Positions 1 through 40,011 of a stretch of 59,222 nt of DNA are shown here, piece after piece. This stretch comes from a virus. How positions within the stretch are numbered: the stretch's first letter is position 1; each line of letters starts with the position of its first letter. The position numbers were made by a program, and so were the translations under genes. The notes beneath the pieces were generated by a model, which did no database searches, was not told the origin of the DNA, and was given only the letters and a program-made list of their open reading frames with translations. The stretch covers positions 1 through 59,222 of the IMG/VR virus record IMGVR_UViG_3300043411_000192. One strand, given 5' to 3'.

Positions 1-344
1 ATCTGGATGGGCTGGGGCACCGTGAACCAGTTGGCAGTTGACGACGGACGCTCCCACGGGCCGGGTGTGGCTGCGTCGAGCAGTCGGCGTGCTTCGGCGA
101 ACAGCTCGTCGCTGGTGCAGTCGCACGGCCCGATGATGTCGCCGTCAAGCGTGCAGACCATCCCCTCGTCGTTGCAGTGAGGGCAGGGCTTGCGCTCGTC
201 GCTGGTGTCGGGGTCGGCACGCAACAACCGGGCAGCGTCACGGAAAGTCGTGACCTCACTTGGTCCCGCAGGGATGGAGTAGCCATCCTCTGCCTCGACA
301 GCCATCCGTTCGAGTGCGTCTGCGATCTTCGTGCGGTCAGTCAT
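1..344 (-). CDS. GC-rich hypothetical protein with Cys-rich motif, C-terminus outside window
   Basis: A reading frame stays open from an ATG at 344 to the window edge, at least 114 codons. Its start overlaps the stop of the preceding leftward gene as ATGA, which implies translational coupling. A cluster CPHCNDEG-MVC followed by GPCDC resembles a small zinc-binding knuckle. No family is recognised. The DNA is far richer in GC than the next gene (341-589), so it looks like a recent acquisition or a swap with a GC-rich relative. It is incomplete, so its function cannot be judged. Confidence 0.6.
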   Translation of the reverse strand, partial: MTDRTKIADALERMAVEAEDGYSIPAGPSEVTTFRDAARLLRADPDTSDERKPCPHCNDEGMVCTLDGDIIGPCDCTSDELFAEARRLLDAATPGPWERPSSTANWFTVPQPIQ

Positions 345-670: not shown

Positions 671-889
671 ATGATCACAGACAGACAGGCACTCGACATC
701 ATCTTCCAAGCGATCATCGCTGAAGACGTTGTGAAGTTAAACTTAGAAGAGTTAGATGCAGTTTCCGAACTGTACTGGTATAATGATCCAGACGTTGAGT
801 TTGTAGAAATTGATTACACTCTTGAAGCTGGGCCAAATCTTCATGGTGTAAATACCGAAGAAGAGATGATGGAGACATACACATGTTAA
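671..889 (+). CDS. Hypothetical small acidic protein
   Basis: A 72-residue acidic protein with a good Shine-Dalgarno sequence (AAGGAG) 9 bases before ATG. Its last codons overlap the endolysin start, so the two are likely translationally coupled. No known family, signal peptide or membrane segment is seen. Its place as first gene of the lysis operon suggests late expression. A role in controlling lysis is possible but not supported by any motif. Confidence 0.7.
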   Translation: MITDRQALDIIFQAIIAEDVVKLNLEELDAVSELYWYNDPDVEFVEIDYTLEAGPNLHGVNTEEEMMETYTC

Positions 890-2703
890 GTCAATCGCAA
901 CTCCAATATGCCTGGGGTCCTGCATGTACCGGTTCAAGAGCAACAGTTTCTCTACACGGTAGAGGAAAGGTTACAGTTAGAACTTCTATAGTCGAAGCGA
1001 CTAAGGCTCTTAACTCTTGCTTGGTGAGATGGAACTACCAGACACGTTATGCTGATACTGGTGCGTATGTATGCCTGGCTGGAGAAACCGAAATATTAAC
1101 ACGGCAAGGGCTTAGAAAGATTGAAGACCTTGTTGGACAAGAAATTGAAGTATTAACTCGACGCTCTAAAGATGGCCACGGAAAAGGTGGCCCTGGAACT
1201 TGGGTGAAAACTCGTGTTGAATCATATGGAGATAATCCACTAAGGAAAATAACTCTTTTGTCTTCCGGTATTGAGAAGATTATATATGCAACATCTCACC
1301 ATAGATGGTATACTAAAGGTGATACAACAGATCCTAAAGTTGCTGAATTTGAATGCATTACAGATGACCTTATGCCAGGATTTAAGCTATCTTCGCTAAG
1401 ACCTCAAAGTATTGCTTCAAGAACAAATCCTTCTCCCGTTGGCATTGCTGCTGGTTTAGTTTTTGGTGATGGTACCTTAGATAACCAACAGGCCAGGATA
1501 CAACTTTTTGGTAGTAAAAATATTAAGTTCTTAAAGTATTTTTCTACCGAACAAACTGTAGATTACTACAACGATGATGAAAAATATTCAGAAGAATATT
1601 GTATTGTTAGAGGTCTTCCTAGGAGTTGGAAGACAAAGGGGCCAGATATTGAGGATGGTCCAGCTTATTTATATGGCTGGCTTGCTGGCTATTTTGCCGC
1701 TGATGGCAGAGTAACTAAAGAAGGTGCTGTTGAATTAAACTCATATAAAGAAGAAGATCTACAATTAGCTAGAGACATCGCTCTACGTTGTGGTATCACC
1801 ACTAGACCAATAACTAAGACGGAGAAAACAGTAACTCCACCTGGATCTGGTAAAGAATATGAAGTTACTCAATATAATCTTAATTTCCATAAAAAATATC
1901 TAGATGAATCTTTCTTTTTAGTTGATGAGCATAGAACCAGATTTATAGATTCGACTTCAGATCGTGAACCAAATAGATGGAAGGTTGTCTCTGTCGAAGA
2001 AACGGATCGCCTTGAAGAAGTTTATTGTGTTGATGTTCCCGAGACTGGATGTTTCACCTTGGCGGATGATATTCTAACTGGCAATTGCCGTCAAAAAGTT
2101 ACTGACACTGGTTGGTCTAACCATTCCTATGGAACTGCTATGGATCTTAACTGGCAGTTGAACCCTTATGGCGGTTCTCGCCACAATATCCCAACTGATC
2201 TAGCTGCGGCTATTTGTCGTATTAGAACAAATAATGGCAAGCAAGTTTGGAATTGGGGCGGATTCTGGTCTGGAACCCGTGACTGGATGCATTTCGAAGT
2301 GGTGTGCTCTCCAAGAGACATTGCTACTGGTATTAATTGGTCAACTGTAGCTGGTAACGTAGTTGTACCACCGACTCCTGTAGATCCAGTTGCATTACGC
2401 AAATGGGTTGCTGGTGATCTTTATAACCGTATTCAGACTGTCCCCGTTATGTGGCTGAATAACGCACCACATCCTCTTTATGTTGTAACTCTTCGTGAAG
2501 CTTTGAACCTTGTTCTTAACGAGAAATTACCTGTAGACGGGATTTACGATGCGGATATGGATTGGCAAGTACAGCGTTTCCAGCACAATGTAGAGTCGTT
2601 CTTGGGTGGCAATCCCATTCCTGAAAACCGTGGTACATTTGCTGATGCTACAAAGATGTATCTCGCCAAGGCTCTTGCCAACATCAGAGATGGTAAAGCA
2701 TGA
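883..2703 (+). CDS. Endolysin, M15/VanY-type D,D- or L,D-peptidase, interrupted by an intein
   Basis: Peptidoglycan peptide cleavage is inferred from a Peptidase M15 (VanY-like) signature in the mature part. SNHSYGTAMD (residues 412-421) and DWMHFE (467-472) supply zinc ligands H414, D421 and H470. The C-terminus (about 500-606) looks like a PG_binding_1 helical repeat (DGIYDADMDWQVQRFQ) for wall attachment. Residues 64-401 are an intein inserted just upstream of the first zinc motif, so the enzyme cannot fold until splicing joins residues 1-63 to C402. The spliced product is 268 residues. It has no signal peptide; export would rely on a holin, and one lies at 11472. It overlaps its neighbours on both sides. 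Confidence 0.85.
   Translation: MLSQSQLQYAWGPACTGSRATVSLHGRGKVTVRTSIVEATKALNSCLVRWNYQTRYADTGAYVCLAGETEILTRQGLRKIEDLVGQEIEVLTRRSKDGHGKGGPGTWVKTRVESYGDNPLRKITLLSSGIEKIIYATSHHRWYTKGDTTDPKVAEFECITDDLMPGFKLSSLRPQSIASRTNPSPVGIAAGLVFGDGTLDNQQARIQLFGSKNIKFLKYFSTEQTVDYYNDDEKYSEEYCIVRGLPRSWKTKGPDIEDGPAYLYGWLAGYFAADGRVTKEGAVELNSYKEEDLQLARDIALRCGITTRPITKTEKTVTPPGSGKEYEVTQYNLNFHKKYLDESFFLVDEHRTRFIDSTSDREPNRWKVVSVEETDRLEEVYCVDVPETGCFTLADDILTGNCRQKVTDTGWSNHSYGTAMDLNWQLNPYGGSRHNIPTDLAAAICRIRTNNGKQVWNWGGFWSGTRDWMHFEVVCSPRDIATGINWSTVAGNVVVPPTPVDPVALRKWVAGDLYNRIQTVPVMWLNNAPHPLYVVTLREALNLVLNEKLPVDGIYDADMDWQVQRFQHNVESFLGGNPIPENRGTFADATKMYLAKALANIRDGKA
1072..2085 (+). mobile_element. LAGLIDADG intein in the endolysin
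   Basis: A 338-residue intein. Block A begins at Cys1 (CLAGETEILT). Block B has ATSHHRW. Two LAGLIDADG motifs, GIAAGLVFGDG and WLAGYFAADG, both retain the catalytic Asp. Block F is VYCVDVPETGCF. The C-terminus is ILTGN followed by Cys+1. The penultimate residue is Gly, not the usual His. The homing endonuclease looks intact. The insertion point lies just before the zinc-binding core of the host enzyme. Confidence 0.88.
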
Positions 2704-3787: not shown

Positions 3788-5671
3788 TTATCCGTACATT
3801 TTTTCTAGCATTTCTAATGATATGAACTGTGGACTTTCACAAGATCCATTGTCAACATCATGTAGAACTATTATTCCTCTCCAATATCCTGTACCCTGTG
3901 GACCCATGTATCCTTCTTCGTGTTGATAGAAAGAACCAGCAGCGATTCCGATCTGTTGCTTACCACCGATGTATCTTGTAGCAAACTTTAATCCTTGCTG
4001 GTGTCCCATCACAAAAGATCTACCAATTATGTTTAGGCGGCCATCTAGTTGCCCACCATAAGACTTGGAAGTATTAGGATTATAGAAATAGTGGCAATTA
4101 TGTGAAGCATATCCGTCAGCTATAAATGTTTCAGTTGAAGTTGCTAGTTGTATAACTTCCTGTTCGCCTTCATAAGCAACATCTATAACTTTATCTGTTG
4201 GATAGCTATCACCAGATTGGACCCTTCCTAAACTATCAAATTTAGATTGAAGTTTTTTAATTAATCTATGAGTTCCTATTGATCCCATAAGTTTTAATTT
4301 ATCTCCAATTGATCCTAATATATAAACTTTCCCACAAGATTCCTCTGAATCGTCGGAAGGCCAATGAATATTATATTCATAGCCTAGTTTTTCTAGGATT
4401 AAAAGACTTTTTTCTAATACGATGTTATCGTTTTGGGCAAATCCCAATTGTAGACCTCCTTGTCCTTGATTGGATTTTGAGACATGTCCCTCTCCATCAA
4501 ATATACCAGCTAGGTAACCAGCTTCTTTGGTATCTAATTCATCCCATTCTGGAAATGGTCTACATATTGCAGAACTATTAACTTTAAGATCTTTAGTTGC
4601 TATCCAATCATACTGAGTTGTATAATATTTTCTAGCCAACCAACGATGATCTGCTGTAGATCTAAATATTTTACCACTTTCTAAAGTAATTCTATAAACA
4701 GGGGCTTTAATAGGATCAACAGCTAAAACAATACTTTCTCTATATTTCCTATGGTTATTGCCTAGTTTTTTATATTCATCAAAAGCTAAGAGTTTATCTC
4801 CTATTTTAACTTCACCAAGAGGAATATATTTTAAATCAGCATTAAGGACTCTATGATCTGGAGTTAGGCAATAACTTATACCATCTAAATCAACTGGTTC
4901 CAAAAAGTCATGGCGATGCCAGCCAGGAGTTAGCATATGATCCGTGCTTAATAGTCCCTGTAATTGGATATCAGAGTCAACGGTTTTATTCACACGGTTC
5001 TCATGGTTACCAATGATAAAGTGCTTACCCCAAGGCTTATCAGCTATTCTCGAATCTAGAAGTTCAAACGCTTCATTGCCAGAATCAATATCTGCAATGT
5101 ATCTACGACCCTCCATAGTGCCCTTACCTCTGTCATATGAGGATAAAGAACCCATGTTCCAGTGGTCGCCTAAGTGGATAAGTTTAACATTTTCAGCATG
5201 GATATGATCAGCCATGTACTGAGAAGCCCAGCCTAAGTGCTCTGTGGGCCTCCCAGGCTCTACCTGAGTGTCTGGAATAATGATATGGGTAGCTATACCA
5301 GAATTGTCTTTGCGAAGCTTCTGCGGCTTTCTAGACGCCTTAGGGAGCGATCTGATGTCGTCTTCGTCTTCTAGAATAGAATTAGGAGTGACTGAGATGG
5401 TAAATCCAGTTTTACTGACACTGATTCTATTTACCTTACCCAGAGCTTCCGCCTGCTCTATAGCTTCTTCGATGTCAGTAGACACTCTCTCAACTTTCTT
5501 TTTCTCATTCCAGTTTCTCTGACCATACTTAGCAAGAGCTTTACCGGAAATTGGTGGTAGGTTGTTATCCTCAATATACTGCAAGATACCTTTTTGTCGT
5601 AGCCCTGACTTCCAAAGATCTTCAAGTAGGTCGACATATTCGTAACTTGATATAGTACCTTGCTTGCTCAA
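3788..5671 (-). CDS. Calcineurin-like metallophosphoesterase interrupted by an intein
   Basis: The mature part carries metallophosphoesterase motifs: IIPDTQ (131-136, with DTQ in place of the usual DxH), HLGDHWN (G168-D169), IIGNHENR (221-226) and, after the intein, MGHQQG (555-559). Residues 1-60 form a helical, HTH-like N-terminal domain. Residues 268-525 are an intein. The substrate is unknown; phage relatives act on nucleic acids or nucleotides. The start is TTG with Shine-Dalgarno AAGGAG. A motif with a perfect TATAAT lies 66 bp upstream. The gene is transcribed against the flanking late operons. Confidence 0.8.
   Translation of the reverse strand: MSKQGTISSYEYVDLLEDLWKSGLRQKGILQYIEDNNLPPISGKALAKYGQRNWNEKKKVERVSTDIEEAIEQAEALGKVNRISVSKTGFTISVTPNSILEDEDDIRSLPKASRKPQKLRKDNSGIATHIIIPDTQVEPGRPTEHLGWASQYMADHIHAENVKLIHLGDHWNMGSLSSYDRGKGTMEGRRYIADIDSGNEAFELLDSRIADKPWGKHFIIGNHENRVNKTVDSDIQLQGLLSTDHMLTPGWHRHDFLEPVDLDGISYCLTPDHRVLNADLKYIPLGEVKIGDKLLAFDEYKKLGNNHRKYRESIVLAVDPIKAPVYRITLESGKIFRSTADHRWLARKYYTTQYDWIATKDLKVNSSAICRPFPEWDELDTKEAGYLAGIFDGEGHVSKSNQGQGGLQLGFAQNDNIVLEKSLLILEKLGYEYNIHWPSDDSEESCGKVYILGSIGDKLKLMGSIGTHRLIKKLQSKFDSLGRVQSGDSYPTDKVIDVAYEGEQEVIQLATSTETFIADGYASHNCHYFYNPNTSKSYGGQLDGRLNIIGRSFVMGHQQGLKFATRYIGGKQQIGIAAGSFYQHEEGYMGPQGTGYWRGIIVLHDVDNGSCESPQFISLEMLEKMYG
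4097..4870 (-). mobile_element. Intein in the metallophosphoesterase, single LAGLIDADG motif seen
   Basis: A 258-residue intein starting at Cys1 (CLTPDHRVLN). Block B is STADHRW, and it ends with YASHN then Cys+1. It carries the standard penultimate His and terminal Asn. Only one clear LAGLIDADG motif is visible (YLAGIFDGEG), so the endonuclease may be a one-motif form or partly degraded. It splits the enzyme after the GNHE motif and before the GHQQ motif. Confidence 0.85.
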
Positions 5672-5716
5672 TGTTTACTCCTTAGGTTTGAACGGTTTCC
5701 TCGTTATTACACGACT

Positions 5717-5737
5717 GTCGTTATTATAATCAACGAC
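5717..5737. repeat. Inverted repeat at metallophosphoesterase promoter
   Basis: GTCGTT and AACGAC flank a 9-bp centre containing TATAAT on both strands. The palindrome coincides with the leftward promoter motif, so it may be an operator. Confidence 0.45.
5719..5737 (-). promoter_or_regulatory. Recurrent phage promoter motif with perfect TATAAT
   Basis: Minus strand GTCGTTGATTATAATAACG has the GNCGWW block and, after 3 bp, TATAAT. It lies 66 bp upstream of the metallophosphoesterase start and has no TTGACA-like box at -35. Confidence 0.5.
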
Positions 5738-5786
5738 TGTATTGGTTATACCGACCATTTTAACACACCTTGAGAGATTTGTCAAT

Positions 5787-5815
5787 TTGACAAATGAAAT
5801 GATGTGTGTTATACT
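5787..5815 (+). promoter_or_regulatory. Strong sigma70-type promoter with no obvious gene after it
   Basis: TTGACA (5787-5792) and TATACT (5810-5815) are separated by 17 bp. No credible open frame follows before the next promoter at 6243, so the product is probably a non-coding RNA. Confidence 0.8.
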
Positions 5816-5820
5816 CCGTG

Positions 5821-6240
5821 GAAATTCGAATACAACTTACGAGTTCTGGGTTCGCAGCCTAGATTCTGACGAAGGATTCATCGGGCATCTTCGGATGTAG
5901 GGGTAGCTTCCTCCTTAAGTACCAGAAAGCACACCAGACATAATCAACTGTATGTAAAGGCAGACCTGGGTTACACGTTCGAAGTGTTGATTATGATACG
6001 TTCCGTCCTGACAGCTACGGCTGTATTTGACTAGGCTCCGTTCAGCTTCCATTACACTGGAAGGAATGGTTTTTAGTTGATTCCCTTGCACTTCTTGTCT
6101 CATCCTGAATTGCGGGGGGATTTAACTATTCACCGGTTTGCTAACCATTATCTAAAAGGAATAGGGGAAACAACCTCTCCTGCTTAAACTTCCTGAAAAC
6201 AATTCGGAATAAAATCCTCACTCTCAGCGTTAAAGCACAA
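5821..6240 (+). ncRNA. Candidate structured non-coding RNA of about 420 nt
   Basis: This 420-nt stretch lies between two consensus promoters and lacks a convincing gene on either strand. It holds many self-complementary segments. GCATC-UUCG-GAUGU closes a UUCG tetraloop near 5885. ACAUAAUCAAC (5938-5948) can pair with GUUGAUUAUG from 5987. ACAGC-UACG-GCUGU lies near 6010, CUUCCA-N6-UGGAAG near 6050 and AGGGG-N6-CCUCU near 6165. The segment AATTGCGGG near 6110, with CCTGC near 6180, faintly recalls a group I intron P4 helix, but no exons or P7 are evident. It matches no tmRNA or RNase P signature I know. The 3' end is not defined by a clear terminator. Confidence 0.5.
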
Positions 6241-6242
6241 AC

Positions 6243-6271
6243 TTGACAGACCTGATAATCTATGGTATAAT
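6243..6271 (+). promoter_or_regulatory. Perfect sigma70-type promoter for the phage sigma gene
   Basis: TTGACA (6243-6248), 17 bp, TATAAT (6266-6271), 36 bp before the TTG start of the sigma factor. Being a host-type promoter, it would let the phage sigma be made early. Confidence 0.88.
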
Positions 6272-6306
6272 GATACCTATATCAAGTCGAAAGGAGTAGA
6301 GATACT

Positions 6307-7089
6307 TTGATTCTGAAAAACAAGAGGAAATTCTCTAAGCAAGAGAAGGAAGATCTTTGGGATTCTTATTACGAAAATCCTGATGATACTAAAGTTTTCA
6401 ATGAACTATTAGAAGCATACCTTCCGCTAGTAGAGATTATAGCCTCTAAAACTAAATCCAAACTTCCTGTTCAAATTGAGATAGGAGATCTTGTCAATGA
6501 CGGATTCTTTGGATTAGTTGATGCTATCCAAAAGTATGATGAATCAACAGGAAATAAGTTTGAAACTTATGCCTCTAACCGAATTCGTGGAGAGATTAAC
6601 GATAGGTTACGAGACTATGACTGGGTATCTCGCTATTCTCGTTTAAAGTTTAAACAGGTTTCTCAAACCGAAGCTCTTCTAGAAGAAGAGATGCAAGCTA
6701 GACCATCTTCTCAGGATATCGCTGATAGATTAGGATGGGACTTGGATGAGGTACTGAAGACTCAATCTTCGTATCTATCATCATTCTCAATAAATATTGA
6801 TGAGTATATCTCAGATTCAACCCACGAATCTTTTTCGCTGAAAGAAATGATTCCAGATTCTTCAGCTCCTGATGTTGGGTTCTCTCTAGAGTTATCAGAG
6901 ATTTCATCAGTGCTTGAAAAAAGTTTGTTTTCTCTCTCTGAACAGCAATCAATTATCGTATATCTCTATATTTACGAGGAAATGAAGCTAAATGAAATTG
7001 CTACACTCCTAGATATTAACATCAAACAAGTAAGTAAAATATACGATCAGGCATTAAAGCAAATGGAAAGTATGTTACACGTCATCTGA
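6307..7089 (+). CDS. RNA polymerase sigma factor, FliA/WhiG-like
   Basis: A 260-residue sigma-70 family protein. Region 2 spans about 30-125, with EIGDLVNDGFFGLVDAIQKYD followed by YASNRIRGEINDRLRDYDWVSR. The RIRGxxxDxLRxxDWV string is typical of FliA, WhiG and SigF-type factors. A short region 3 (about 125-170) and a region 4 helix-turn-helix (about 205-258, LNEIATLLDINIKQVSKIYDQAL) follow. The start is TTG with AAAGGAG upstream. Family knowledge says such factors read GCCGATAA-type -10 elements. Motifs of that kind recur upstream of late genes in this window, so it is a good candidate for the late-gene switch. Confidence 0.85.
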   Translation: MILKNKRKFSKQEKEDLWDSYYENPDDTKVFNELLEAYLPLVEIIASKTKSKLPVQIEIGDLVNDGFFGLVDAIQKYDESTGNKFETYASNRIRGEINDRLRDYDWVSRYSRLKFKQVSQTEALLEEEMQARPSSQDIADRLGWDLDEVLKTQSSYLSSFSINIDEYISDSTHESFSLKEMIPDSSAPDVGFSLELSEISSVLEKSLFSLSEQQSIIVYLYIYEEMKLNEIATLLDINIKQVSKIYDQALKQMESMLHVI

Positions 7090-7135: not shown

Positions 7136-9967
7136 TTGAAAATTAAGAAAAAAGGCACAAATCCAGAATACATAAATGAATTCTCTACAGCACTATTGGA
7201 TGGTTTCTACCTACAAGATGGGGAAACTTTTGATGATGCTATTGCTAGAGCGGCTGAGGCTTTCTGTTTCGGTGACTATGAACTCGCTCAGCGTGTTTAT
7301 GAAGCTGCTTGGAATGGCTGGTTCATGTTTGCTAGTCCCATTTTGAGTAATGCACCGAAGGGTTCTTGGTCTATTGATATGACTGATGCCTGGAAAGAAG
7401 ATGGGTTACTAACTAATGGCTTTACTGGTGAACATACCAAAGCTATGCCTATTAGCTGTTTCAGCATGTATATTCCTGACACTATTGATGGTCAGATGGA
7501 TGCTAACAAGGAACTAGCTGCACTTTCTGTAGCCGGTGGTGGTGTAGGTCTGCATAATGGCATTCGTGCCACTTCAGATAAAGCCCCTGGTCCTATTCCT
7601 TATATGAAAACAATGGATGGTCTAATTGGATACTATCAGCAAAGTAAAAACCGTCGTGGAGCGTGTGCATACTACATGGACATCTCGCACCCGGATATCA
7701 TCGAACATATTCGATTCAGAGTACCGTCCGGTGGAGACTCTGCGCGTAAATCTGATAACAGGAAGCAATTCCACTCAGCAGTTAATGTTACAGACGAGTT
7801 TATACAGGCCGTGCTCGCAGACGAAATGTTCAACCTTGTTGACCCGCACAGCAATGAAGTACGAGAGGTAATTCGTGCTCGTGATATCTGGGAAGAGCTA
7901 CTAGAGGTTCGTGCGCTAACAGGTGAGCCGTATATCTTCAAGATTGATACAGCCAACCGTGCACTTCCGCAAACCCAAAAAGACAAAGGTCTAAAGATCA
8001 ATGGTTCTAATATCTGTGTAACTCCAGAAACACCTATCCTTACTGACAAGGGTCATCTACCAATTGGGGCGCTTGATGGATTAACAGTGAATGTATGGAA
8101 TGGTGAAGAATTTACCGAAACAACTGTACATAAAACTGGTGATCTAGAACATGTTATAAGAGTTAATACATCAAAGGGTCACTTTATTGATTGCACGCCT
8201 ATGCATAGCTTTTATGTTGTGCGTTCATATGGCAAGAATGCAGAGCTTGTTAAGGCCCATGAACTTCAGCCAGGTGACAAATTAGAAAAATGTGATATGC
8301 CAGTTATTGAGGGAGAAAGAACTCTATTTAGAGCATATACTAACGGTTTCTATACTGGTGATGGTTGTGAAGTTAAGGGTAGATCGCGTATTTATCTCTA
8401 TGACCAGAAGCAAGCTCTAGCTGAGGATATTGAAGGTGTAGAGTCGTGGACTGTGCAGGAAGATTTTAATCGCATGTATGGATACGCAGAAGGTCTACAG
8501 GAAAAATACTTTATTCCAGATGCTACATATACTATTGCTAGTCGTGTTAAATGGCTTGCTGGCCTTATGGATTCTGATGGAACATTACTCAAAACGGGTA
8601 AGTCTCAATCAGAAACCGTACAGATAGGTAGCGCAAATCTTCCATTTCTTCAAGATGTCCAACTTATGCTCCAGACGCTAGGAGTAGATGCTAATATTTC
8701 TCTAATGCGTGAACGTGGATCTTGGTTGTTGCCAGCCAACGATTGGACTGGAGAACTCAAGGAATTTGATTGTGAAGAAGTTAATCGTCTTCTAATAAGC
8801 TCGTATGATCTTTACAGATTGTCTAAATTAGGTCTAAGCTGTAATCGTTTGCAAATTAGCGGGCGTAAGCCACAGCGTGAAGCTAAGGTTTTCAATGCTA
8901 TTGTTTCAGTTGAAGATTATAGTAGAGTTTCAGATGTTTATTGCTTCACAGAATCAGGTCGCAACAAGGGTATCTTTGGTGGCATATTAACGGGGCAGTG
9001 CATTGAAATTACTCTTCCTACTAGTGAAGACCGTACTTTTGTATGCTGCCTATCCTCTCTTAATCTTGAAAAGTATGATGAGTGGGCAGACACAACACTA
9101 GTTGCTGATCTAGTACGCTACCTAGATAACGTAATTCAGTTCTTCATAGAGAAGGCACCTGACTCCCTAGAGAAGGCGAAAATTTCTGCCGCTAAGGAAC
9201 GTGCTATTGGTATTGGAACAATGGGCTGGCACCACTACCTACAGAGCAAAGGTATTCCCTTCGAGGGTGGCGGCTTTGGATCTGGTATTCAGGAGACTCA
9301 CAAGATCTTCTCACATATCAAGGCACAAGCTGTTGCTGAGTCCGAGAAGCTAGCCATAGAGCGTGGAGAACCGGAAGACATGGTTGGCTCAGGACGTCGT
9401 AATAGTCATCTATTTGCTATCGCTCCTAACTCTAACAACTCAGTTATTCTTGGAACTTCACCTAGTATCGAACCAGTCTCTGGTAATACTTATTCTCAGT
9501 CAACTAGAGCAGGTACATTTACCGTGAAGAACCCTTATCTAGACAAGCTTCTATATTCTATTGCGCTAGGTCTAGATGGAATTTTCGAACCTGATGAATG
9601 GGTAACCGAACAGTGGAGAGATATCATTGCTCACGATGGGTCAGTACAACACCTGGAATATCTTTCAATTGAAGAAAAAGAAGTCTTCAAGACTGCCTTT
9701 GAGATTGATCAGCACTGGCTGATAGAGCAAGCAGATGCTCGTCAGCAGTATGTATGCCAGTCACAGAGTTTGAATCTTTTCTTCCCATCAGGCGTTTCTA
9801 GAACATATTATAATTCAGTACACCTTAAGGCTCTTACTTCAGAATATGTGAAGAGTCTATATTATTCAAGAATGGAGCGAGGCATTAATGCTGACGTGGT
9901 TAAAGAAATTGAAAGAAAAGTTATCGAAGACTGGGCAGGGGATGACTGTGTTGCCTGCTCCGGCTGA
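7136..9967 (+). CDS. Ribonucleotide reductase class I large subunit with intein
   Basis: Reduces ribonucleotides to deoxyribonucleotides for phage DNA synthesis. C108 (ISCFSMY) and C637 or C638 (FVCCLSSLNL) match the active-site redox pair. Extein residues N292, C622 and E624 correspond to N437, C439 and E441 of the E. coli enzyme, with C622 the thiyl-radical cysteine. The C-terminal DDCVACSG holds the shuttle cysteines C938 and C941. No ATP-cone is present at the N-terminus, so allosteric activity control is probably lacking. The intein (residues 294-621) splits the catalytic N-x-C-x-E motif; the spliced protein is 615 residues. The TTG start is preceded by AGGGAG. The small subunit follows at 10139. 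Confidence 0.92.
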   Translation: MKIKKKGTNPEYINEFSTALLDGFYLQDGETFDDAIARAAEAFCFGDYELAQRVYEAAWNGWFMFASPILSNAPKGSWSIDMTDAWKEDGLLTNGFTGEHTKAMPISCFSMYIPDTIDGQMDANKELAALSVAGGGVGLHNGIRATSDKAPGPIPYMKTMDGLIGYYQQSKNRRGACAYYMDISHPDIIEHIRFRVPSGGDSARKSDNRKQFHSAVNVTDEFIQAVLADEMFNLVDPHSNEVREVIRARDIWEELLEVRALTGEPYIFKIDTANRALPQTQKDKGLKINGSNICVTPETPILTDKGHLPIGALDGLTVNVWNGEEFTETTVHKTGDLEHVIRVNTSKGHFIDCTPMHSFYVVRSYGKNAELVKAHELQPGDKLEKCDMPVIEGERTLFRAYTNGFYTGDGCEVKGRSRIYLYDQKQALAEDIEGVESWTVQEDFNRMYGYAEGLQEKYFIPDATYTIASRVKWLAGLMDSDGTLLKTGKSQSETVQIGSANLPFLQDVQLMLQTLGVDANISLMRERGSWLLPANDWTGELKEFDCEEVNRLLISSYDLYRLSKLGLSCNRLQISGRKPQREAKVFNAIVSVEDYSRVSDVYCFTESGRNKGIFGGILTGQCIEITLPTSEDRTFVCCLSSLNLEKYDEWADTTLVADLVRYLDNVIQFFIEKAPDSLEKAKISAAKERAIGIGTMGWHHYLQSKGIPFEGGGFGSGIQETHKIFSHIKAQAVAESEKLAIERGEPEDMVGSGRRNSHLFAIAPNSNNSVILGTSPSIEPVSGNTYSQSTRAGTFTVKNPYLDKLLYSIALGLDGIFEPDEWVTEQWRDIIAHDGSVQHLEYLSIEEKEVFKTAFEIDQHWLIEQADARQQYVCQSQSLNLFFPSGVSRTYYNSVHLKALTSEYVKSLYYSRMERGINADVVKEIERKVIEDWAGDDCVACSG
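8015..8998 (+). mobile_element. LAGLIDADG intein in RNR with atypical C-terminal Gln
   Basis: A 328-residue intein from Cys1 (CVTPETPILTDKG). Block B is CTPMHSF. LAGLIDADG motifs are NGFYTGDG (about residue 403) and LAGLMDSDG (about 475). It ends FGGILTGQ then Cys+1. The terminal residue is Gln (codon CAG) rather than Asn, and the penultimate residue is Gly rather than His. Gln-ending inteins are known but rare and can splice. Cys+1 is the catalytic radical cysteine of the enzyme. Confidence 0.88.
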
Positions 9968-27520: not shown

Positions 27521-27546
27521 TCTAGGTAAAAATTGATTCCTACTAG

Positions 27547-33032: not shown

Positions 33033-36000
33033 GTGGCAACTAGATATTGGGTTGGATCGGGAACGTGGAACGCAGCGAGTACCGCTAATTGGTCCGCTAC
33101 TTCGACTACTGGGCCAACTGGAGCTTCTGTTCCGACTGCGGCTGACGACGTTGTATTTGATGCTTCTTCTGGTAATTGTGATTTAGCTCCCGGTGGTAGA
33201 CTCTGCCGCAGCTTGGACGCAAGCACCTACACGGGGGCGATGGTCTTTTCTTCTGGTGGTACGGCAACGCTGTCTGTGGGTGACAGCGTGCCCGGTCCCG
33301 GCAATGTTGCCTTTCGGTTGTCGGCGGCAATGACGTTCACCACGGGCGGCGTGTCGTTTCCTTCCACGATCACGTTTGCGTCCACGTCGACTACGGCGCA
33401 GACGATCACCACGAACGGTAAGACACTCCCCAACGTCACGTTCAACGGTGCCGGGGGGAAGTGGCAGCTTCAGGACGCCCTGACAAGCTCGGGCATGATC
33501 ACGACCACGGCGGGCGGTTTCTTCGGCAACGGGCAGACCATCACCGCAGCATCGTTCAACGGCGGGACGACAGGTGTTCGCACGGTCGACATCACGAACT
33601 GCTCGATCACCCTCACAGTGGGCGGCGGCACACCGTGGAACATGGGCTTCACCCCTTCCAACCTGACGTTCGTGAGCACCGGGTCGACCATCACGTTCAC
33701 CGGGTCGCTGGGTCTGGAGTTCCGTGGCGGTGCCCTGACGTACAACAACTTCGTCAACACGATGACCACCGGCACCACCCCGATCCAGATGTCGGCGGTT
33801 AATACGTTCAACAACCTGACGTTCACCGGGGCGGCGGGTACGGCCTGTCAGGTCATGCTTGCTGCGAACCAGATTGTCGCCGGCACCCTCACGATCACCG
33901 GCAACTCGGCGACGAACCGGGTCCTCTGCTACTCCGAGACGCTCGGTACACCTCGGGTCATCACTGCTGCCGCCACTGCTCTCACCGATGTTGATTTTAT
34001 GGATATCGCTATAGTTGGTCCTACTGGATCTACTATTACATCAGATAGCTTTAACAGAAGTAATGGCGCACTACATGGATCTACGTCTGATGCCGCTGCC
34101 GGTGGGAGTGGCTTAACTTGGTCTACTGGAAGTAATTTCAATATTGCTTCTAACGCATCTACGGCTAATAGTAGTAGTTCCTATATCACCATACCTGTTG
34201 CTACTTCTAATATGGAAGTTTCAGCGACCGTGCCAACATTGGTCACGAGTGGACATGCTGGTGTGGCGGCTAGAATATCTAGCATAACTAATTTCGTATT
34301 TTATGGTGTATCTAATGCCTCAACCCAATCCGTGCTAATGTATCAGATTGGATCAACGTCTAGTTCTGTTTCCTGTGGTCTAGTCGCTGCCGGGTCTACA
34401 ATCTCTTTAAGAGTAATAGATCAAATAGCTGTTGCTTTAGTTAATGGAACAGTCGTGGGAACGCTTGCTATTCCCCCGGCTTCTTCGTTCACTTCACCAA
34501 ATAATGCTGGTCTTCAGCAGATGAGTACGGGCACTATTGATGACTTTGCAGTGAAGAATCTCGCTTCAGTAACTGGCACCCGGCTCGGTGACTGCCTCGG
34601 CAACTCGGGCATCACCTTCACCACAGCTTCTGGTACAGCTAGAGATGGTGGTGGCGCTGGAGTAAAGAGATATGCTGTAGCTGCTGGTAACTGGTCCTCG
34701 ACAGCAACGTGGTCGGAGTCGGACGGCGGCGCGCCGGGAGCGTCGGTTCCTCTCCCGCAGGACGACGTGTACATCAAGCGTTCCTTCTCCAGTGAAACTA
34801 TTACAATAGACATGCCGAGGCTGTGTCGTCTGTTGGATTTCACTGGCTCTACTGGCACACTTCATACCTCACAGCTTGTAACGACTGCAACGATCTTTGG
34901 ATCGTTGGTACTAGCAAATATTCCCGGTAATCTACTAGCTTCTAATATAAGACTTCTCGGAAAGTCGAATACGATTACAACCAATAGTAGAACTTTTATA
35001 AATGCTAATGCAGCCCTTGTTATTGATGGTTCATATACGATGACCGACCAACTCTTCGTTGGTGGAGATTTAAGTTCCATATATGGCAGTCTTAATACGG
35101 GAAGTTATGCTATATCCTGCGGTAGATTTATGTTCTCGTATAGTGGCACTTTAAACCTTGGCTCTAGTAGTATCACTATTACACAAACGGGAGCCGCTAC
35201 TCCAGCGTGGACTGTCAGTTCGCTAGTAAATCTTAGTGCGGCTTCATCAACGATCACATTTGCTTTGGATGCGCCCATTGGTGGCGCCACCTCAAGTGCC
35301 GCAGCTACCCATACATTTGCTGGCGGAGATAAGAGTTACGGCACTCTCACCTACACGGTCGCTGACTCGCCCGGTGCTCTAACAATCACTGGCTCTAACA
35401 CTTTCGGCACAGTCAACATTGGTTCTGGTAGATCACTGAAACTTACTTCTGGTACTACACAGAAGATAGGTACATTAAATCTTAATGGTGTACCTAGAGG
35501 TGGAGTCAGGTTGCCGGGAGTTGGTGGCACATATTTGTCCACACCGGATTCGGCAGCAGTATCAGTTACTGGTGACATCGACATCAGGTGCAGGGTGGCG
35601 TTGACCGACTACACCGCTGCGTCGGAAGGTGCTCTCGTCACCAAGTTCGGCGCAGCAGGCCAACGGTCCTTCCGCTTCTACTTCGATTCGGTGGGACGGT
35701 TGAACTTCAACATGAGCACCGACGGGACCGCCAACACGGGGTTGCAGTGGCAGGCAGGGCCGACGTTCGTTGACGGGACGACCTACTGGGTGAGGACCAC
35801 AAGAACCGCCGCAGGGACGCTCAGGTTCTTCTACGCCGCCGATCAGCCGACGATGCCAACGTCATGGACCGAGGCTGGGTTGTCACAGACCCTTTCTGCT
35901 GGGCAGAACATTTTCGACTCCACCTCGCCGGTCGAGATCGGGTCGATGACTCTCGGCACGGCCTACCTCGCCAATGGCGTGTTCTACCGGGCGCAGATCC

Positions 36001-36344
36001 GCAACAACGTGTTGGACGACGGCTCTGGCATCGTGTTCGACACCGACTTCTCCCCAGCACGATTCTGGCCGTTCTTCCTCGACTCGGCCAACGGCGCAGC
36101 GGTTACTCCGTCGACCACGCTGGCGAACGTCGGGGACGGCAGGGTCGTCATCGAATCCTCCACCGCAGGCACAGGGGCCACTCTTGAAGTTGGTTCTGTT
36201 ACCGGCATGAATTATGTTGACCTGAAGGATGTTGTTATGAATGGTGCCGATACATATATTGAGGCTACTTCCGTAATAAGAAGTAACGTCAAGGGTGTGC
36301 GTCGAGGCCCACAAACCGGCATGTCGATGATGATGGGAGTTTAG
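33033..36344 (+). CDS. Large mosaic adhesin-like fibre protein
   Basis: An 1103-residue protein with a GTG start after TTAGGAG. Two copies of a module ([10 protein letters not shown] near residue 5 and [11 protein letters not shown] near 545, each followed by GASVP and a DD-V strand) begin beta-rich repeats of autotransporter or beta-helix style. Residues about 825-1065 form a LamG/concanavalin-like lectin domain ([27 protein letters not shown]). The DNA alternates sharply between AT-rich and GC-rich blocks (GC-rich at about 33190-33985, 34690-34790, 35578-36180) without breaking the frame. Likely a receptor or glycan binder assembled by recombination. Confidence 0.75.
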
Positions 36345-36345
36345 G

Positions 36346-37656
36346 ATGACAACGTATATAGTGACACAAGGAATTCAAGGTCCAGAGGGTGCTCAGGGGC
36401 CTGCTGGCGCTACTGGTCCTGATTCCACTGTTCCCGGTCCTACCGGCGCTCAGGGGGCTACTGGTGCGGGCGCTACGGGTCCTCAGGGTCCAACTGGACC
36501 AGAGGGGGCAACTGGCCCACAGGGCGCTTCCGGTGTTGGTGCTCAAGGATTCACCGGCCCGCAGGGAGCTACGGGTGCATCTGGAGAAAATGGTTTAGCC
36601 GGTTCTACTGGCGCTACGGGTCCACAGGGGGCGACTGGTGTGACCGATCACGGGCTGTTGACCGGGCTGTCCGACGACGACCACACCCAGTACGCGAAGA
36701 AGGCATCGAACCTGTCAGACCTCGCCTCGGCCGCGACGGCACGAACCAACCTTGGTTTGGGCACGGCGGCGGTGGCTGCGACCGGGGACTTCGACGCCGC
36801 AGGCACGGCGGCAGGACTGGTTGATGACCTGTCGGGTGTGTCGAACCAGGCGACCGCCCGCGCGAACCTCGGACTCGGTACCGCGGCGACGGCGGCGACT
36901 GGCGACTTTGCTGCTGCGTCGCACACGCACACCGGTACTCAGGTCACGGTCGATGCGTCGGGGTTCAACGGCAACCTCACCACATCGGACGACACGTTGC
37001 AGGAGGTCGCGCAGAAACTCGACGACCTCGCGGTTGGTGGGTCGGAGACGTTGGCTGCGTCGATCATCGACGCCAAAGGCGACCTCATCGTCGGCACAGC
37101 GAACGACACTGCGGGACGCCTGCCTGTGTCCGCGACGAACGGCGCTGTCCTCGTTTCGGATTCCGCTGCGAGCACCGGGTTGAACTGGGCGGTCGACCCG
37201 TTCATCGTCACGCTGCCTGGCGCGAGCCCGACGCTCCTCGCTGCGATCGCCAACTACGCCTTCGCGATGCGGGTGTTCGGTGCCGGGACCATCTCGAAGG
37301 TCGCCCTGCAGATCGGCACGTCGTCGGGCAACATCTGCGTCGGCGTCTACTCGAACACTGGTGTCGGTTACAACGCCACCCCGAACGCCCGCCTCGCCAC
37401 GTCCGGTTCGGTGGCGTGCCCGTCCACCGGCTACCAAGAAGTCGCTCTTGGGTCGTCGGTTGAGGTGCGAACCGGTGACTGGCTTGTCGTCGCGTTCGAC
37501 AACGCCAGCGCCACGTTCTACGGCGTCGCAGCACCAGGGTCAGGGTTGGCGAACAACGGCCTGGTCCGCACCGCGAACTCGTCGTTCCCGCTGCCCACCA
37601 CGTTCACCGCGCTCAGCAGCCATGATCGCTCGGTGCGCCTGTGGGGAATTCCGTGA
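36346..37656 (+). CDS. Collagen-like fibre protein with GC-rich distal part
   Basis: A 436-residue protein. Residues 8-98 are collagen-like Gly-X-Y repeats encoded by AT-rich phage-type DNA. At about 36640 ([10 protein letters not shown]) the DNA turns GC-rich for the rest. The distal part has [17 protein letters not shown], common in phage fibres, two repeats of [12 protein letters not shown] type and a C-terminal jelly-roll-like domain (about 285-436). The GTGA at the end overlaps the esterase start. Confidence 0.78.
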
Positions 37657-38672
37657 TCGGACGGGGCCGCCCCGTCCCACCCGCCGACACCGCGGACCTG
37701 TTCGTGTCGCCGTCGGGCACTGGTGACGGATCGACCGAAGCAACCCCCGACAGCCTCTACGACGCGATTACCACGGCGACCACCGGGCAGACGATCGCGA
37801 TGCTGCCCGGTGCGTATGCGGGCGCCGGGTCGTTCGACAAGCAGGTGACGATCCGGCCGCGCACCGGCAACATCGGGTACAGCGTCACGCAGACCACCGG
37901 GCTGTGCTACCCGGCGCGCGGGTCGCTCGGCTCGATCGTGCTCGACGGCGTGAAGATCACGTCGATGGTCGGCACCGCAGGCGGCACCGAATACTGGACG
38001 CTCGCCACCCCATCCGAATACACCTCTGGCTCGAAGATGGGTGTCATCTACTGCCACGGCGCGACCGGCGACGAAACCCAGCCGTGGGCGTCGTGGCCGT
38101 TCGCTCTCGGCAACATCATCCGCTCCGTCATCCAGACAGGGTTTCCGGTGCTGTCGATCCACGGCGGCGGCGACACCTGGGGCAACGCCACGTTCAAGGC
38201 CCGCATGGACGAAGCGGTCGCAGCGTTCCCCGGCCTCGGCGCCAAGGACGCTCCCGTCGCCGTGATGGGCGGGTCGATGGGCGCCCTGTCGCTCAACTGG
38301 GTGAAGGACCACCTGGCCGACACCGCCTGTTTCGTCGGCATCACCCCCGTCACCGACGTGTCCGACATCCACACGAACAACCGTTCGAGTCTCGCCGGGT
38401 CGATCAATACCGCCTACTCCACATGGTCCGAAGCGACCTACGGGGCGACCTACAACCCCAAGACCTACGCAGCCGGGTCGCTCACCGGCCTCGACTACAA
38501 GGCGTGGTACGGGGCATCGGACAGCATCGTCATCACCACCACCGTGACCGACATCGTGACCGCGATCGGTGGCACCGCCTCCGCAGTCTCGGTCACCGGG
38601 GACCACACGTCCGCTCTCGGCAACATCCCCGCCGCCGATGTCGTCGCGTTCCTCGTCGCGAACCAGTCGTAG
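37653..38672 (+). CDS. Fibre-linked alpha/beta hydrolase (esterase-like)
   Basis: A 339-residue protein with a start at GTG 37653 overlapping the previous stop; GTG 37641 is an alternative. The N-terminus (about 12-85) resembles the first turns of a pectate-lyase-like beta-helix ([12 protein letters not shown]). The rest is an alpha/beta hydrolase: YCHGATGD for the oxyanion region, nucleophile elbow VMGGSMGAL, then YGASDSIV (candidate Asp) and TGDHTSAL (candidate His). A cell-surface deacylase or depolymerase is inferred. It is encoded wholly in GC-rich DNA. Confidence 0.7.
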
Positions 38673-38680
38673 GAGCTCTC

Positions 38681-39190
38681 ATGCCGCCGTTCCTCACCTC
38701 CACCGTCATCCCCGGCGAGATGCTCGCCGGTACCCGCCTCCTGTCAGCGAACACGCTGTACTACATCCCGTTCCCATGCATGAGAACCACAACGTTCGAC
38801 CGCATCCAGTCCTATTGCGGGGCGTCTGGGCACAGCATCCGAATGGGCATCTACGAATCCGGCAGCGACGGGTTGCCGGGCGCGTTGCTGTTGGACGCCG
38901 GGGCTGCGACCGCGCCCGTCGCCTCCACGGCCCTCACCATCACCATTTCGCAGGCGTTGGTCGGCGGCACCCTGTACTGGCTCGGGCTGGTCTCGGACAG
39001 CGCGGCGACGGTCGTGAAGTGTTCGCCGATCGGTTCGCAGGCGTTCGGTCTAGCAAGCGCGATGGGCACCGGCGGCAACCAGGCAGTCATCTCGCAGTCC
39101 CACACGTACGGCGCGTTGCCGTCGAACGCGTCGGGGCTGTCGTACACAAACTCGGGGGATCTGCCAGCGATCGGAGTGAGGGCATCATGA
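38681..39190 (+). CDS. Fibre C-terminal-domain protein (jelly-roll-like)
   Basis: A 169-residue protein with ATG 38681 after AGGAG. LSANTLYYIPFPCMRTTTFD, then SIRMGIYESGSDGLPGALLLDAG and GGTLYWLGLVSD, match a beta-sandwich domain also seen at the ends of the 30517 and 36346 fibres. It overlaps the next gene as ATGA. Probably a detached fibre-tip domain acting in trans or a receptor-binding head. GC-rich DNA. Confidence 0.6.
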   Translation: MPPFLTSTVIPGEMLAGTRLLSANTLYYIPFPCMRTTTFDRIQSYCGASGHSIRMGIYESGSDGLPGALLLDAGAATAPVASTALTITISQALVGGTLYWLGLVSDSAATVVKCSPIGSQAFGLASAMGTGGNQAVISQSHTYGALPSNASGLSYTNSGDLPAIGVRAS

Positions 39191-39468
39191 GAACGGTCAT
39201 CACCTACGGCGTCGGCGGCTACAACCCTGATTTGCCGAACGGCAACATCGTCGAACAGACGGTCGACAACCTCGACGGCACCGGCACGAGGACCACCTAC
39301 GACGCCGACGGCAACGTCACCAGCGTCGAACAACTCACCGGGCTACCGATCCCCGTGCCACCCGAGCCGACCGCGGAGGAACGACTCGCGACCCTGCTCG
39401 CGGCGTTGACCGACGCGCAGTCGCTCGAAGAGATCCGTGATGCCGCTGCTGCGGCAGGGGGCAACTGA
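39187..39468 (+). CDS. Small fibre-associated protein, GC-rich paralogue of 32223 gene
   Basis: A 93-residue protein. Its N-terminal half aligns with the 32223 product (both MRT, GGY-N/D-P, DGTGT, YDADGN or YDVDGT, then an LP-IP or LEIP turn). The C-terminal helix (LATLLAALTDAQSLEEIRDAA) is shorter and Ala-rich. It follows the jelly-roll domain gene as its paralogue does, so the two-gene unit is duplicated. Confidence 0.65.
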   Translation: MRTVITYGVGGYNPDLPNGNIVEQTVDNLDGTGTRTTYDADGNVTSVEQLTGLPIPVPPEPTAEERLATLLAALTDAQSLEEIRDAAAAAGGN

Positions 39469-39578
39469 TGGCAACCAAGCGTGAACGGCTCGACAGCCTG
39501 ACGGCGAAGATTCGGGGCAATATCGACGTGGACATTCAACATCGAACCTTGGAGCAGTCTTGTTGTGAGGAACTATAA
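39468..39578 (+). CDS. Short frame across a GC junction, possible truncated remnant
   Basis: A 36-residue frame starting in overlap with the previous stop (TGATG). Its first about 22 codons are GC-rich (MATKRERLDSLTAKIRG) and its last about 12 AT-rich, so it runs across the right border of the GC-rich island and stops soon after. It looks like the head of a gene cut by recombination. A functional peptide cannot be excluded. Confidence 0.4.
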   Translation: MATKRERLDSLTAKIRGNIDVDIQHRTLEQSCCEEL

Positions 39579-39750
39579 GATCAACAACTTTACTGCTGGC
39601 TGGTCTAGGGGTCAGGTTGTGTTCTCTGGTGGACCCGATTTCAACTGTCAAGTGTTTGATGTTGATTTTACTAATCTTGTTGTAACTGATCCTAGGGGTG
39701 AGACTAACGACTTTAGCATTGCAGCTTGTGCTGATATTATGATAAAATAA
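39565..39750 (+). CDS. Hypothetical small protein at island border, maybe a fragment
   Basis: A 61-residue beta-like product with a GTG start and only a GGAG 12 bases upstream. No family is recognised. It lies just to the right of the GC junction and could be the tail of a gene disrupted there, or a small genuine gene. Confidence 0.4.
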   Translation: MRNYKINNFTAGWSRGQVVFSGGPDFNCQVFDVDFTNLVVTDPRGETNDFSIAACADIMIK

Positions 39751-39771
39751 ACTATAAAAAGGAAAAAGGAT

Positions 39772-40011
39772 ATGTTTGGAAGAGATAAGGAATTTTTAGG
39801 TAAACGTAGAGATAGAGCAATAGCAATTATTCTCTCATATAAAGAGAGAGAATGTGACGACTATTTACCTGACTACGTTTCTAGAGAATTAAGGAAAGTT
39901 GTTTTAGATCAAATAAATGATATTTGTGATTTAGCTATGGATCTAATGAATGACGATATAGATTTTAACGAGGAGTTTCTAAATAAATTGGATGAGATTC
40001 TAGAACGATAG
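39772..40011 (+). CDS. Hypothetical small helical acidic protein
   Basis: A 79-residue helical, acidic protein with a good Shine-Dalgarno (AAAAAGGA) before ATG. No motif is recognised. It begins the AT-rich block after the fibre island and directly precedes the neck protein gene. Confidence 0.6.
   Translation: MFGRDKEFLGKRRDRAIAIILSYKERECDDYLPDYVSRELRKVVLDQINDICDLAMDLMNDDIDFNEEFLNKLDEILER

Follow-up and report, generated by a model that had tools for sequence, protein, structure and literature searches.

A candidate pseudoknotted non-coding RNA upstream of the sigma factor gene of an uncultivated phage

ROOL and GOLLD are highly structured non-coding RNAs of phages and prophages, with long-range pairing and unknown function; a ROOL example measures about 659 nt and GOLLD over 800 nt, and both often lie near tRNA islands (PMC12286853). 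The put RNAs of HK022 are about 70 nt long and form two stem-loops (PMC9378689). The bacterial OLE RNA is long and structured, with unpaired stretches that are highly conserved (PMC9723947); it measures about 600 nt and forms a ribonucleoprotein with Oap proteins.

We analysed a window of 59,222 bases, the entire record of an IMG/VR virus, a phage known solely from metagenomic sequence. Around the candidate RNA the gene order is endolysin (plus strand), metallophosphoesterase (minus strand), a 635-base gap, a sigma-70-family factor (plus strand) and the large and then the small subunit of ribonucleotide reductase; for more than 50 kb downstream of the RNA the main genes all lie on the plus strand. 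The neighbouring genes are as follows.

883–2703, plus strand: endolysin with an intein (LAGLIDADG domain of intein type)
3788–5671, minus strand: metallophosphoesterase interrupted by a LAGLIDADG intein (domain and comparison with relatives)
6307–7089, plus strand: phage sigma-70 family factor of 260 aa with regions 2, 3 and 4
7136–9967: ribonucleotide reductase large subunit with an intein (LAGLIDADG domain of intein type)

The close relatives found among IMG/VR contigs are L002, an uncultivated phage, and L003, whose sigma factors are 66% and 63% identical to that of the window; the three phages are syntenic across many genes. LAGLIDADG domains of intein type occur in three genes of the window (endolysin, phosphoesterase and reductase large subunit), and the insert is absent from the phosphoesterase relatives in both L002 and L003. 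Elsewhere, window 36001–40000 is a GC-rich island (0.59–0.65 vs about 0.42) with open frames in several registers, including a collagen-like ORF at 36346–37656 (Pfam PF01391). The GC content of window 1–340 looks far above that of the adjoining sequence; this part may be a gene acquired from elsewhere or a join made during assembly.

An earlier note, made from the window sequence, had described a TTGACA-17-TATACT promoter followed by about 420 nt without a convincing gene and then by a second consensus promoter. Both promoters match the consensus closely, and the first stands back to back with a leftward one.

5757–5785, minus strand: leftward promoter for the metallophosphoesterase gene, TTGACA-17-TAAAAT, 11/12 consensus positions, with TG
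5777–5795, no strand: palindrome ATTTGTCAATTTGACAAAT with the back-to-back −35 boxes of the two divergent promoters
5787–5815, plus strand: promoter 1, for the RNA, TTGACA-17-TATACT, 11/12, with TG before the −10 box
6243–6271, plus strand: promoter 2, for the sigma factor gene, TTGACA-17-TATAAT, 12/12, with TG
5717–5737 (L003 5203–5223; L002 about 5447–5467): GTCGTTA-N7-TAACGAC, an inverted repeat that precedes the phosphoesterase gene

A scan of the window outside 33901–39299 found just four sites with at least 11/12 matches and TG, at 657(−), 5785(−), 5787(+) and 6243(+). The divergent layout recurs in L002, where the −35 boxes lie at 5504(−) and 5507(+): the counterpart of promoter 1 (5507–5535) matches at 11/12 positions, that of the leftward promoter at 12/12, and the counterpart of promoter 2 (5940–5968) again lies behind the RNA. 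The inverted repeat is kept in all three phages, is the sole match in the window with fewer than three mismatches, and is likely an operator or a leader hairpin.

The interval between the two plus-strand promoters contains no ORF longer than 62 aa. Its alignment with L002 has gaps of 1, 2, 4 and 23 bases, which disrupt every frame, so that no ORF is common to the two sequences. The coding-type substitution that had been named in advance as a sign against an RNA is not seen, and we rejected a protein-coding interval, which would consist of short ORFs none of which is kept in L002.

The homologue of the RNA lies in the same gap upstream of the sigma gene of L002 (5542–5901), and the alignment covers window 5825–6165. 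Blocks found by blastn are 81–92% identical; parts of the RNA core are 60–87% identical to L002, as against about 20–37% for the spacer behind the RNA. The stretch 5897–5941 is 87% identical, and 6170–6242 is not conserved. The position of promoter 1 would place the start of the RNA near 5822, and the point where conservation stops would place its 3' end near 6165. The earlier suggestion of a structured RNA thus stands with its length revised from 420 to about 345 nt. L002 holds the sole homologue found: scans of IMG/VR with proteins and with conserved RNA patterns gave no third family member. Other IMG/VR pattern matches were due to chance, as checked by covariance model and, for one many-locus set, by BLAST; so were all four matches of a pattern scan of genome contigs. 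BLAST searches of phages and plasmids with the RNA as query gave no useful match.

The proposed structure comprises the following elements.

5822–6165, plus strand: structured non-coding RNA, from homologue L002 and covariation, both ends predicted
5825–5831 with 5977–5983, plus strand: P1, pseudoknot helix of 7 bp, 4 compensatory changes
5845–5863, plus strand: P2, hairpin UCUGGG/CCUAGA, from sequence comparison; CAGAG/CUCUG in L002, in a shifted register
5885–5898, plus strand: P3, hairpin GCAUC-UUCG-GAUGU with a UUCG loop, 2 compensatory changes
5899–5915, plus strand: P4, hairpin whose UAGCUUC loop is conserved, with one G-C to C-G compensatory change
5916–5933, plus strand: conserved unpaired joining stretch UUAAGUACCAGAAAGCAC, within the 87% identity of 5897–5941
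5934–5969, plus strand: possible second pseudoknot, CCAG (5934–5937) with CUGG (5966–5969), invariant
5939–5948 with 5986–5995, plus strand: P5, long-range helix of 10 bp, 5 compensatory changes
6007–6035, plus strand: P6 (CCU/AGG) with an inner hairpin at 6011–6024, 2 compensatory changes
6074–6128, plus strand: 3' rod hairpin; L002 has a long hairpin at the matching place, 5813–5872
6126–6164, plus strand: P8, CUAUUC (6126–6131) with GAAUAG (6159–6164), 1 compensatory change

A search for helices shared by the window and L002 at aligned positions ranks P5 first and P1 second. P5 corresponds to the long-range ACAUAAUCAAC/GUUGAUUAUG pairing noticed from the window alone, now with 10 pairs, and the UUCG tetraloop hairpin noticed in the same way is retained as P3. 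P1 had been missed: the 5' end of the RNA pairs into the loop of P5, which also carries the conserved GGCAGACCUGG. P1 and P5 cross to form an H-type pseudoknot, with a gap of only two nucleotides between the helices. Support for P2 is weaker because of its register shift, and the CCAG/CUGG pseudoknot is neither supported nor refuted, since its pairs are invariant in both sequences. The 3' strand of the rod hairpin is conserved in L002 as GGGGGAUUUAAYUAUUCACCG, and P8 competes with the base of the rod.

Each of the 45 proposed pairs forms in the window and in L002, and 15 of them are changed on both sides (alignment A7), so that the compensatory changes that the earlier note had looked to homologues for are present in the one homologue found. 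Two sequences limit the support from covariation to a single divergence, and as they also served to build the structure that is tested on them, we made controls with shuffles and coding windows. Sliding the partners by 1–3 columns reduces the compensatory pairs to 0–2. The best helix score was reached in none of 1000 shuffles of columns within conservation classes; it is 25 in the RNA and at most 14 in 43 coding windows taken from the genomes of the window phage and L002. Helices of at least 7 bp with at least 4 compensatory pairs number two in the RNA and none in the 43 coding windows. The homologue therefore shows compensatory changes and no coding signal, as a structured non-coding RNA should, and on this sequence evidence the predicted structure is well supported.

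Minimum-energy folding gave z = −1.93 for 5822–6242 and −0.82 for 5822–6168, not above chance, and the minimum-energy fold lacks P5, as is expected for a pseudoknotted RNA. Energy alone could not have confirmed the suspected structured RNA; the comparison with the homologue does so at the sequence level. These unremarkable energies (z −0.8 to −1.9) are what chance inverted repeats in a spacer without functional RNA would give, but covariation far exceeds that of shuffles and coding controls, and the conservation comes as blocks within an otherwise unalignable spacer, which makes chance extremely improbable.

Helices with at least 2 compensatory pairs number 6 on the plus strand and 1 on the minus strand, and this fall on the reverse strand identifies the plus strand as the RNA. 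We consider it highly unlikely that the locus is instead a DNA element (a replication origin, an operator array or a cruciform) or an RNA primer of replication, transcribed incidentally. In each of the three phages cumulative GC skew does turn near the divergent phosphoesterase/sigma region (window 4001–6000), which may mark divergent transcription or an origin; divergent transcription alone, however, explains the skew, and the pairing signal is strand-specific with conserved G-U pairs, which fits an RNA and not a DNA palindrome.

The earlier note had recognised no known phage RNA and proposed a search of Rfam. That search, run at E up to 10 over window 5600–6400 and L002 5400–6000, found no family at its gathering score in the window and none credible. 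The ROOL model gave no match in these intervals, and the GOLLD, 6S RNA and RNase P RNA models were likewise unmatched by the window RNA and its L002 copy. There is no tmRNA or tRNA-like domain in the window by ARAGORN and no Rfam match to one. With no credible match, the RNA falls outside ROOL, GOLLD, group I introns, tmRNA, RNase P RNA and 6S RNA as represented by their Rfam models. Neither the window nor the first 80,000 bases of the L002 contig yielded a tRNA gene; the L003 phage has a cluster of eight (L238 18591–19941).

A ribozyme would fit in style the size, the pseudoknotted core and the intein-rich neighbourhood, and so would the relic of an element that spliced or cleaved itself, for example a group I intron lacking exons. 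The sole intron match scores 24 bits against a gathering threshold of 90 and is not credible, and neither sequence gave a credible match to group I, group II or self-cleaving families at E up to 10. The P4-like segment AATTGCGGG, which had been taken as a faint group I lead, falls in a 6-nt gap of the alignment, being absent from L002, and the RNA is intergenic, outside any exon, and has its own promoter. We therefore regard a ribozyme or its relic as very unlikely.

No intrinsic terminator was found between the RNA and the sigma gene; good ones occur elsewhere in the window, at 27545 and 43013. A discrete 3' end is thus unexplained, and the lack of a terminator led us to consider that the end may be made by processing or by Rho, or that the RNA may head a longer transcript. 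The same lack makes a cis-acting leader the main rival explanation. Such an RNA would head a long transcript running through promoter 2 into the sigma, reductase and late genes, acting on it either as a regulatory leader or, for example, by processive antitermination, for which it would load RNA polymerase in the manner of the HK022 put RNA. The RNA points the same way as the sigma and reductase genes and, like putL, closely follows a strong promoter at a point of divergent control (PMC9378689). However, the put RNAs, at about 70 nt and two stem-loops, differ from the pseudoknotted 345 nt of the window RNA (PMC9378689), and the consensus promoter behind the RNA in both phages would bypass the leader: with a strong promoter of its own in the window and in L002, the sigma gene can dispense with the RNA as a leader. 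The missing terminator and the co-directional genes over 50 kb lead us to keep a cis leader as an unlikely but serious candidate.

The third phage bears on the same question. By blastn, L003 keeps the sequence of the RNA promoter, inverted and in a back-to-back arrangement with the promoter of the sigma gene. The sigma gene of L003 stands immediately after its own promoter and no copy of the RNA intervenes, which also counts against a leader. A covariance model detected no homology to the RNA in L003, so that the RNA is not universal among relatives. The inverted promoter points leftward into 476 nt (5440–5915, minus strand), similar in length to the RNA, which fold better than shuffles (z = −2.9) and may encode an unrelated RNA in its stead. 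Within them, a match to twister-P1 at 5629–5685 (minus strand) stays below threshold (21.6 bits against a gathering score of 67.2).

The homologue, the conserved structure, the strand and the promoter pattern are supported, and we conclude from the sequences that this is probably a new functional phage RNA. We give just over an even chance to a discrete, early, trans-acting structured RNA of a new family, transcribed with host sigma70; action in trans is preferred because the sigma gene has a separate promoter in both phages and L003 has no RNA at that place. Host sigma70 RNA polymerase would transcribe the plus strand from the divergent control region that separates the phosphoesterase gene from the sigma-factor gene, probably early in infection, to give an RNA of about 345 nt. 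Its fold would centre on the H-type pseudoknot in which the 5' end (P1) pairs into the P5 loop; as the two helices abut, they could stack. Between P1 and P5 would lie the small hairpins P2–P4 and the conserved single-stranded joint, followed by the P6 domain and the 3' rod. The folded RNA would most likely act in trans, through the joint UUAAGUACCAGAAAGCAC and the loop GGCAGACCUGG, by binding to or self-assembling into a complex, with a host or phage target during takeover. More tentatively, at somewhat less than an even chance, it may represent a new class of medium-sized phage RNAs with a 5'-end-to-loop pseudoknot core, encoded in the main control region of the phage next to its own sigma factor gene and serving in trans, either in the takeover of the host or as part of a phage ribonucleoprotein.

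To our knowledge, only a few phage RNAs reach such complexity, and what ROOL and GOLLD do is an open question. With about half the size of these RNAs, a covariation-supported fold and a strong promoter, the window RNA should be easy to synthesise in vitro, probe and image. Its place beside a phage sigma factor offers a concrete hypothesis, control of the takeover of transcription. The case also suggests that the reading of one genome together with one distant relative can expose an RNA that energy-based folding misses.

ROOL and GOLLD are characterised by RNA-only multimeric cages. The window RNA resembles them in being non-coding, phage-encoded and structured with long-range pairing; unlike them, it measures about 345 nt, has no Rfam match and comes from a window without tRNA genes. 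It shares with group I introns a pseudoknotted core, but its pairing order differs, only 2 nt separate the 3' strands of P1 and P5 with no P8-like hairpin of the P3/P7/P8 group I core between them, and it is not within an exon. Like the HK022 put RNA, it would be made by host RNA polymerase from a directly preceding early promoter; it differs in its length of about 345 nt, its pseudoknotted core and the second promoter behind it. With OLE RNA it has in common that it is long and structured, with conserved unpaired stretches, whereas it comes from a phage, is about 345 nt long and matches no Rfam family.
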